A DNA stretch of 60,308 bases from an archaeon (GTDB lineage Archaea; Nanobdellota; Nanobdellia; Woesearchaeales; GW2011-AR9): positions 1-60,308 of the forward strand of contig JAHFQW010000008.1 of NCBI GenBank assembly GCA_023259115.1. The letters run 5' to 3'. The position numbers were made by a program, and so were the translations under genes. Of the stretch, positions 34,705-56,927 are shown in pieces. Under the pieces are notes generated by a model, which saw only the letters and a list, made by a program, of their open reading frames with translations, ran no database searches and was not told where the DNA came from. How positions within the stretch are numbered: the first letter of the stretch is position 1; each line of letters begins with the position of its first letter.

Positions 34705-34853
34705 TATCACCCAAAGCGCAGAAAGTAATCTGAATTTATAAAACTCTCTTTAGTCCCACCCTTTCATTAAAAATCCAGGCCAACCTATGAGTGAAGTCAT
34801 AAAAATGGTTTCGTTATAGTAAATGTGTGAAATAATCAAATAGTAACCTACAG

Positions 34854-34943
34854 AGTACTTTGAATAACCCCTATATTCATCGATATTCAAAGTACTTCTT
34901 AGAGGAGTTTGACAAGTGTTATAGGGTTAATCAAACCCCTCTA
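34854..34943. repeat. minimal copy (C) of modular palindromic element: two adjacent hairpins
   Basis: agtactttgaat/attcaaagtact 12-bp perfect stem; gaggagtttga/tcaaacccctc stem with one mismatch; homologous blocks at 53011-53483. Confidence 0.85.
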
Positions 34944-52938: not shown

Positions 52939-53005
52939 TTAAACCGCTCAAACCGTAATCTCTTTAAATAGATTTCGATTAAGAAAAATAAATTAAACAA
53001 TTAAT

Positions 53006-53486
53006 AGAGGACTTTGAATAGCCTGTATATTCATCAATATATAGATACGGCAGTAAATTATTGAACATATAACAGCTGTATCTATATAGTACGGCACTAA
53101 CAAAATATTCAATTAATTAGTGCCGCACGTATAATAAACCACAGTTTATTTATTAGATCGCTGTGTCATATACTATATCCTCTACACAGTTATCTAAATT
53201 CAAAGTATACCAAAAGCACTAATTAATTCCAAAAATAGTTAGTGCCTTTGTATATACAAGAAAATAAGAAACAACTTATTTTCTGTACAGAAAACAAATC
53301 GTTGTTTGTTTTCTTGTACAACGAACATAACTATTTTAATTAAAAATTAGGTTCGTTGGTATACTTCTTAGAGGGGTTTGACAAGTAAAAATCACTTGCC
53401 TATTCGAACACTTGAGATGATTTTTACTCTTGAAAATGGTTTTTGCATTTTCATTGAGTTTTATAGGGTTAATCAAACCCCTCAAT
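53006..53486. repeat. expanded copy (A) of modular palindromic element with nested hairpin insertions
   Basis: Shares outer blocks with 34854-34943 and a 251-bp block (about 11 mismatches by eye) with 56279-56529; at least eight stems (see findings). Confidence 0.9.
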
Positions 53487-53513
53487 AAATTAAAAAGATA
53501 AAACAAAGAAATC

Positions 53514-56183: not shown

Positions 56184-56530
56184 TATATCAAAGGCACTAA
56201 TTAATCATACGAGGTAGTTTGTGTCTTTGTATATATAAAAGCACGAACAAATATATGAATATTTCGTGCTTTTAGTATAGAGGACTTTGAATAACCCCTC
56301 TATTCATCAATATATAGATACGGCAGTAAATTATTGAACATATAACAGCTGTATCTATATAGTACGGCACTAACAAAATATTCAATTAATTAGTGCCGCA
56401 CGTATAATAAACCGCAGTTTATTTATTAGATAACTGTGTCAAATATTATATCTTCTACACAGTTATCTATATTCAAAGTATACCAAAAGCACTAATTAAT
56501 TCCAAAAATAGTTAGTGCCTTTGTATATAT
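56184..56530. repeat. rearranged copy (B) of modular palindromic element
   Basis: 251-bp core shared with copy A (53006-53256) plus extra left modules gtatatcaaaggcactaattaatc...tttgtatata and aaaagcacgaa/ttcgtgctttt. Confidence 0.9.
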
Positions 56531-56592: not shown

Positions 56593-56927
56593 GAAAAGTA
56601 GTAGTGGCAGGAGCAACGGGAATCTTGTAAAAGACACCCAGGAAAGTCCGTCCACCACAAACACGTTGCTTCCTCTAGGAAGACGGAGAAATTCCGTAGC
56701 ACTGGCTCAGACACGACACGTCCTGCAGGATGGGATGATTTGGCGAAGGATGTTGTGAAACATCCGAGTTAACCCTTTGACGTCCCTGCAGGGACCGATG
56801 AAACGGTGAATCTCAACGGGTGCAAGTCTGTTACAGACGCTCAGTAGAATGCTCCACACACAACTATCGGCAAAACCTGTTTTTGCTTTGGGTTGTACAA
56901 AAGACGGCTTACGCCACTCTACTTTTC
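56593..56927 (+). ncRNA. rnpB: RNase P RNA
   Basis: P1 gaaaagtagtagtggc/gccactctacttttc; CR-I caggaaagtccgtcc; gaaacggtgaatctcaacgggtgcaag; agtagaatgct; 3' acaaaagacggcttacg. Confidence 0.93.

Follow-up and report, generated by a model that had tools for sequence, protein, structure and literature searches.

How did a run of hairpins lying inside other hairpins come to occupy positions 53006-53486 of an archaeal contig, and is it DNA or RNA that folds there? The window analyzed is the whole stretch of 60,308 nucleotides containing this locus. A first-pass annotation, made from the sequence alone, had aligned the locus to a ~90-bp minimal copy at 34854-34943, reported three palindromic insertions, and proposed a family that grows by acquiring hairpin units, either through MITE-like nesting or as an expanding structured RNA. 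The minimal copy aligns as described, and all of the palindromic stems listed for 53006-53486 were found where they had been placed. The 485-nt stretch folds far better than chance. As DNA, its folding energy was -85.5 kcal/mol, compared to -35.6 ± 4.0 for dinucleotide shuffles (z = -12.6); as RNA, the value was -140.1, compared to -80.9 ± 5.9 (z = -10.1). The element contains 4 perfect hairpins with a stem of at least 8, whereas 300 shuffles of the element had a mean of 0.27 and a maximum of 2.

We compared the element with its own genome (1.57 Mb in 54 contigs) using BLAST and obtained 75 matches at ~40 places. Reading these matches together with their flanks revealed several independent families, with two adjacent hairpins in each. 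The annotation had accepted that its reading would fall if only three such loci existed anywhere. This is not the case, given the 75 matches in the same genome, relatives in many genera, and 73 public stretches that carry a 21-bp end of the host element. Below, Lnnn denotes a locus and Gnnn a genome, with G000 being the window's own genome. The composite consists of a host element, A, with C, G, F (carrying D), and E, i.e., at least five guests, with D at the third level of nesting. C and G lie in loop 1 of A, F lies between its two hairpins, and E lies in loop 2. The features are as follows.

53003-53487, + strand: whole composite, host A (53007-53483) with its 4-bp target site duplication AATA (53003-53006 and 53484-53487), defined by the A ends and flanks.
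53007-53041, + strand: A, hairpin 1 left arm plus the first part of its loop, GAGGACTTTGAATAGCCTGTATATTCATCAATATA, from the alignment to 34854-34943.
53042-53131, + strand: guest C, double hairpin TAGATACGG..GCACGTA with a TA duplication, in loop 1 of A and adjoining G; empty site CATCAATATAATAAACC.
53132-53196, + strand: guest G, TAATAAACC..TTATCTA, also in loop 1 of A, with a TA duplication whose right copy has degenerated; A copies that lack G show the empty site CATCAATATTCAAAG.
53197-53207, + strand: A, right arm of hairpin 1, ATTCAAAGTA.
53208-53361, + strand: guest F, B-type double hairpin TACCAAA..TTGGTA between the A hairpins, TA duplication at 53206-53207 and 53362-53363; empty site CAAAGTACTTC.
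53257-53316, + strand: guest D within F, 60 bp, CAAGAAA..TTTCTG-TA-CAGAAA..TTTCTTG, 2-bp duplication TA, linker TA at 53286-53287; F' copies are empty at L013:9836 and L020 and filled at L009.
53362-53385, + strand: A, linker CTTCTTA followed by the hairpin 2 left arm, GAGGGGTTTGA.
53386-53456, + strand: guest E, a double hairpin (TAAAAATC..CATTTTCATTG) located in loop 2 of A and flanked by an AG duplication (53384-53385 and 53457-53458); empty site TTTGACAAGTTTTATAGGG at L061.
53457-53483, + strand: A, final part of loop 2 followed by the hairpin 2 right arm, GGGTTAATCAAACCCCTC, with the right terminal inverted repeat.
34853-34941, + strand: minimal A without guests.
56186-56530, + strand: second composite, with full B at 56186-56277, the left part of A from 56280, C at 56315-56404, G at 56405-56469, and the left half of F from 56481 to ~56530.

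The three palindromic insertions are thus real and correctly positioned, and each resolves into one or more elements with boundaries of their own: the first into C and G, the second into F with D inside it, and the third into E. The description of the insertions as hairpin units holds insofar as the modules are palindromic. However, instead of being stems that were duplicated, each is a mobile element in its own right, and their palindromes are paired into double hairpins. That F carries a guest of its own, D, goes beyond the earlier description.

Copies with and without guests defined the exact boundaries, and the sites lacking inserts that the annotation had called for were found. The empty site of C comes from copies of A plus G that lack C (L029, L030, and L033); C beside G was seen only in the window copies, and C also stands alone (L025, L014, and L026). 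Loop 1 of A reads CATCAATATTCAAAG when empty and CATCAATA-TAATAAACC..TTATCTA-TATTC when filled by G. Copies of F elsewhere in the same genome are 97-99% identical by BLAST, and a second version, F', lies at CAAAGTCCTTC with a TC duplication. A copy of A has entered another A (L024 is filled, L022 and L023 are empty, at site AATATAGTT), and a copy of B occupies loop 2 of C at L026. L028 has four levels, namely, A, G, a D (D1), and a further double hairpin inside that D. Insertion of B, C, D, E, and G creates 2-bp duplications. About 12 insertion events, identified by eye, all fall in loops or between hairpins and none in stems; no formal test was made, and the pattern may reflect target positions and which copies stay recognizable. 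The MITE-like alternative offered in the annotation is upheld: modules occur elsewhere with or without one another, empty and filled sites exist, targets are duplicated, and A has an autonomous IS5-family partner. Taking the explanation as a whole, including the inferred movement of D and B described below, we consider it very likely that the locus is a nest of small nonautonomous mobile elements, each made of two adjacent DNA hairpins.

Other arrangements were observed around these copies. The second composite, which lacks the right halves of F and A, is located immediately upstream of the archaeal RNase P RNA (56597-56923). L064 and the minimal A at 34854 share a left flank (window positions 34829-34860), so the segment duplicated there extended beyond the element itself. 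At L014 (~280-540; C20) and L029 (~1986-2173), A lies directly beside or within another A fragment, which suggests that the TATA at A ends has been used repeatedly as a target.

A is a MITE with the ends of an IS5-family transposon. It follows the plan GAGGACTTTGAATAACCCC..TATTCAAAGTCC TTCTTA GAGGGGTTTGA..TCAAACCCCTC, is ~90 bp long and gene-less, and is present in tens of copies. At L115 (the same locus as L184 of G032), the A ends TATAGAGGACTTTGAATAACCC lie 1.2 kb apart and enclose a 333-amino-acid protein, an IS5-family transposase (NF033581; E = 1.3e-57) with DUF772 (PF05598) and DDE_Tnp_1 (PF01609) domains. This autonomous copy belongs to another Nanoarchaeota genome. A is flanked by 4-bp duplications, mostly TATA but also TTCA, TTTA, TAAA, TACA, and, twice, AATA; for the L090 copy, the duplication reads as 5 bp, AAGTA. 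Of the features that define an IS5 MITE, shared terminal inverted repeats (TIRs), a short noncoding multicopy body, and a 4-bp duplication are all met, but a transposase in the same genome is not. In G000, which is ~4% incomplete, neither a PF01609 match nor a homologue of the L115 transposase was detected; this type of transposase is present in G032, with remnants in G010. With no such transposase detected in the window's own genome, the A elements there may no longer be able to move. MITEs can persist after their transposase is lost, however, so the missing enzyme is no bar to assigning A by sequence. A resembles IS5-derived MITEs in its ~90-bp length, lack of a gene, TIRs identical to those of the autonomous element, 4-bp duplications, and many copies. 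It differs in having two local hairpins, in hosting nested guests, and in that, for some genomes (L113 is one example, judged by eye), changes in the right arm accompany those in its inner partner and not those at the left end.

An exact 21-mer from the A end, TATAGAGGACTTTGAATAACC, occurs in 73 stretches of public species genomes. The records belong to Woesearchaeota, Pacearchaeota, and Nanoarchaeota, with a few named just "archaeon" and three stretches in two bins labelled Thermoplasmatota. The contigs in these two metagenome-assembled genomes (L112, L153, and L156) end at or near insertion sequence copies bearing the A end, which could mean either misbinning or a real transfer. The 21-mer had no match in viral contigs. 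A viral origin was rejected, as both the A end and the D pattern are missing from 2.9 million viral contigs.

D is a double hairpin of ~60 bp with the plan CAAGAAA..TTTCTG-NN-CAGAAA..TTTCTTG and exact 7-bp TIRs, CAAGAAA/TTTCTTG. At the foot of each hairpin, one base on the outer arm is unpaired (C-A-AGAAA versus TTTCT-G). With the linker left free (NN), the pattern detected D in 20 of 51 genomes from the window's family; one more positive genome belonged to a different family of the order. D also extends beyond the window's genus. The reversed pattern, used as a control, had no match in 362 genomes. D sites are mostly outside coding frames or near gene ends, and 8 of 61 look coding if the insert is skipped. 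At L219 (G017:C2:972581-972640), D sits at the extreme 3′ end of what appears by eye to be a ribosomal protein L2-like gene and provides its stop codon. The joint expected upon excision, TTTCTTG-NN-CAAGAAA, was absent from the collected loci.

The stems of D bear on whether the composite is instead an expanding structured noncoding RNA, a reading that accords with the good RNA folding (z = -10.1) and with covariation of the stems. Among 29 nonredundant copies of D, 277 of 290 cells at variable stem positions were Watson-Crick pairs, and several positions had three or four pair types, above the level in shuffles. Stem covariation, which the annotation had proposed checking, is therefore present, but G·T pairs (G·U in RNA) account for only 3 of the 290 cells, and this scarcity argues for a DNA palindrome rather than an RNA. 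Moreover, copies lie at sites that are unrelated to one another and carry target duplications, and individual modules are gained or lost independently of the rest. No Rfam family matched the window element or 19 related loci, so neither mark of a structured RNA, membership in a described family or G·U-tolerant covariation, was met. We give this reading almost no credence. Pairing between the loops of D (kissing loops) was also rejected; loop complementarity was below that of shuffles (97 versus 112.8).

The dinucleotide between the two hairpins of D is related to the site of insertion. For 64 distinct copies with flanks, an identical 2-bp sequence, XY, was present on both sides in 59. The linker was the reverse complement of both XY copies in 55 of the 64, with 10 different linker dinucleotides, and the rule was broken on at least one side in the remaining 9. 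We then removed copies within 4 differences of one another. In the resulting nonredundant set (n = 29), the linker matched the left flank in 26 copies, the right flank in 27, and both in 25. In 100,000 shuffles, the left match averaged 6.3 and never exceeded 19, against the 26 observed; without TA linkers, 19 of 22 matched on the left, against a shuffle mean of 5.8. Flanks that differ from their own reverse complement numbered 17; the reverse complement of the linker fit 16 of them and the plain linker none, ruling out a same-orientation copy of the flank. In >90% of flanks, XY is a pyrimidine-purine step. This statistical test was confined to D; C, G, and E were judged by eye.

Other families were compared with this rule. 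B has the plan TACCAAAGGCAC..TTTGTA-TA-TAC/TAT AAA..TTTGGTA, and its flank/linker pairs are TA/TA, TC/GA (in F'), and TG/CA (L294). B obeys the rule in all three kinds of flank, although only two cases are non-TA and no statistical test was applied. C has the plan TAGATACGGC..GCACGTA. E in the window has an AG duplication and, by eye, CT within its linker. A small second family, D2 (CACAA..TTGTG|CACAA..TTGTG), apparently has neither linker nor duplication, based on a handful of cases. In copies of A from Pacearchaeota and Nanoarchaeota (L131, L137, L178, L160, L132, and L162), the same inter-hairpin position holds another small double hairpin, TTCAACTT..AAGTTGAA TGTA TCAAAGAAC..GTTCTTTGA, which does not obviously follow the rule. 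The possibility that B, C, and G are Tc1/mariner (IS630) MITEs was rejected because TC and TG duplications exist in B and PF13358 is missing from G000 and most carriers.

The linker of D is not a stable part of the element. In 13 pairs of copies, its per-site difference was 0.38 at a body difference of 0.058. Given that the linker changes faster than the body, the target may template the linker, instead of the linker directing the element. Two copies in G200 (L236:1501-1560 and L259:5175-5234) are identical, with the same linker, TG, but have the flanks TA/TA and CG/CG, respectively; both fit the linker through G·T wobble. All four duplication bases differ between these two copies, and both duplication copies seemingly changed together. 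The surroundings are near identical, so the pair may be one old insertion that was later duplicated.

A fast-changing linker would suit an account in which all classes are ordinary MITEs moved by DDE transposases through their terminal repeats, the linker match arising later as quasipalindrome correction copies the flank during replication. Correction of imperfect palindromes is a known mutational process, A is a MITE of this kind, and D has exact 7-bp TIRs and 2-bp duplications. This account nevertheless needs correction in almost every copy, and the identical pair in G200 keeps a linker that only wobble-pairs with its flanks. In addition, DDE_Tnp_1 and DDE_3 are missing in several D-rich genomes, and DDE_Tnp_1 is not associated with D. 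We regard it as unlikely, though still worth keeping in view.

No enzyme was identified for B, C, D, E, or G. Y1 transposase, DDE_Tnp_1, and DDE_3 were all undetected in G000 (~4% incomplete). The enzymes of IS200/605, IS630, and IS5 were rejected as movers of D, being absent in several carriers, with Y1 and DDE_Tnp_1 showing no association. We infer instead that D moves as a folded single strand, a dumbbell, whose linker completes the crossover site for an unknown enzyme. The element would leave as a single-stranded circle closed by XY. Its two hairpins would stack into the dumbbell, such that the junction TTTCTTG-XY-CAAGAAA would face the linker strand TTTCTG-Y'X'-CAGAAA (an inference for both D and B), and the linker would serve as the second strand of a 7-2-7 crossover site, much as folding rebuilds integron attC sites. 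Acceptance would be restricted to chromosomal dinucleotides that pair with the linker, which would yield equal flanks and a complementary linker. Nesting would arise if the elements themselves provide AT-rich unpaired targets where insertion is harmless. It is possible, and we propose it only tentatively, that D and B represent a minimal class of mobile DNA carrying its own target code: a folded single strand of ~60 to 90 nt whose linker dinucleotide forms the opposite strand at the crossover site and is required to match, moved by an enzyme outside the known hairpin transposases, by which archaeal intergenic DNA grows hairpin in hairpin.

The IS200/IS605 family uses a similar logic. D shares with it subterminal hairpins with a single-base bulge and a short internal sequence complementary to the target. 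IS608 recognizes a tetranucleotide target by base pairing (PMC5934647). D and B could thus be derivatives of such Y1 HUH elements, with the linker as the guide and a single strand inserting 3′ of the matching dinucleotide. Y1_Tnp is found in some D-positive genomes, and the expectation of a target-complementary internal sequence is met (for D on both sides in 55 of 64 copies; for B with TA, TC, and TG). The expectation of a Y1 enzyme in the carrier is not: PF01797 was undetected in G000, G003, G016, G017, G020, G021, and G030, all of which carry D, and Y1 was present in 7 of 14 D-positive genomes versus 7 of 23 D-negative genomes (P = 0.30). Furthermore, D is symmetrical, and its 2-nt complementary sequence lies between the hairpins and matches both flanks, unlike the arrangement in IS608. 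We find this derivation doubtful.

A serine recombinase was also considered as the mover. Proteins of ~260 amino acids with Resolvase and Recombinase domains were present in 9 of 11 genomes with at least 3 copies of D, compared to 8 of the remaining 40 (P = 0.0003, without correction for ancestry). The crossover core of serine recombinases is 2 bp long, and if such an enzyme moved D and B, the 2-bp duplication and the linker would be the two strands of that core. In most members of one subgroup, the promoter contains a 7-2-7 palindrome, CTTAGGG-AG/CT-CCCTAAG, with the geometry of TTTCTTG-XY-CAAGAAA. Several facts oppose this: the protein is missing from G010 (100% complete, with 5 copies of D) and from G205, its gene lacks D-like ends, the palindrome is unlike the D box, and the G000 protein belongs to a subgroup different from that of most D-rich genomes. 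Double-strand exchange on a 62-bp circle or dumbbell is also hard to envisage. We judge it quite improbable that this enzyme is the mover and treat it as a lead only. At L303, L306-L312, L316, and L317, the palindrome lies right after the TATA box of the recombinase gene, with the central dinucleotide in both orientations between genera.

D also resembles REP/BIME elements, which are small palindromes, often paired, for which movement in trans by TnpA-REP has been proposed (PMC8266576). It differs from them in its 2-bp duplications and its variable matched dinucleotide, and the window's genome has no detected PF01797 protein. Elements in mitochondria are also similar. GC clusters of yeast mitochondria have AG or ACT flanking repeats, keep their hairpins, merge and shuffle, and are moved by an unknown agent (PMC4478555); double-hairpin elements (DHEs) were described in Allomyces mitochondria (Paquin 2000, as cited in PMC4478555). 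Like the archaeal elements, these are tens of base pairs long, hairpin forming, and gene-less, with short terminal direct repeats and no known mover. The archaeal elements meet the description of a mitochondrial-type double hairpin (two adjacent hairpins, no gene, sporadic copies, short direct repeats). They differ in residing in archaeal chromosomes and in having ten linker dinucleotides rather than a fixed target. In the part of PMC4478555 available, complementarity between linker and duplication was not found described for the mitochondrial elements. Any kinship would rest on analogy alone, since no sequence comparison was made. We found no account of such elements in these archaea in the literature, of which few subscription papers were covered.

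Mitochondrial double-hairpin elements have been described for decades without a mover. The archaeal set adds many copies, exact empty sites, and a numerical rule relating element to target, which together make the mechanism testable. The complementarity of linker and site hints at an undescribed way for DNA to pick insertion sites; if the linker codes for the target, few mobile DNAs with a programmable site would be smaller than these. A occurs widely across Woesearchaeota, Pacearchaeota, and other Nanoarchaeota. Some of the intergenic DNA in Woesearchaeota is accounted for by the nesting, which may also be why some assemblies break there.
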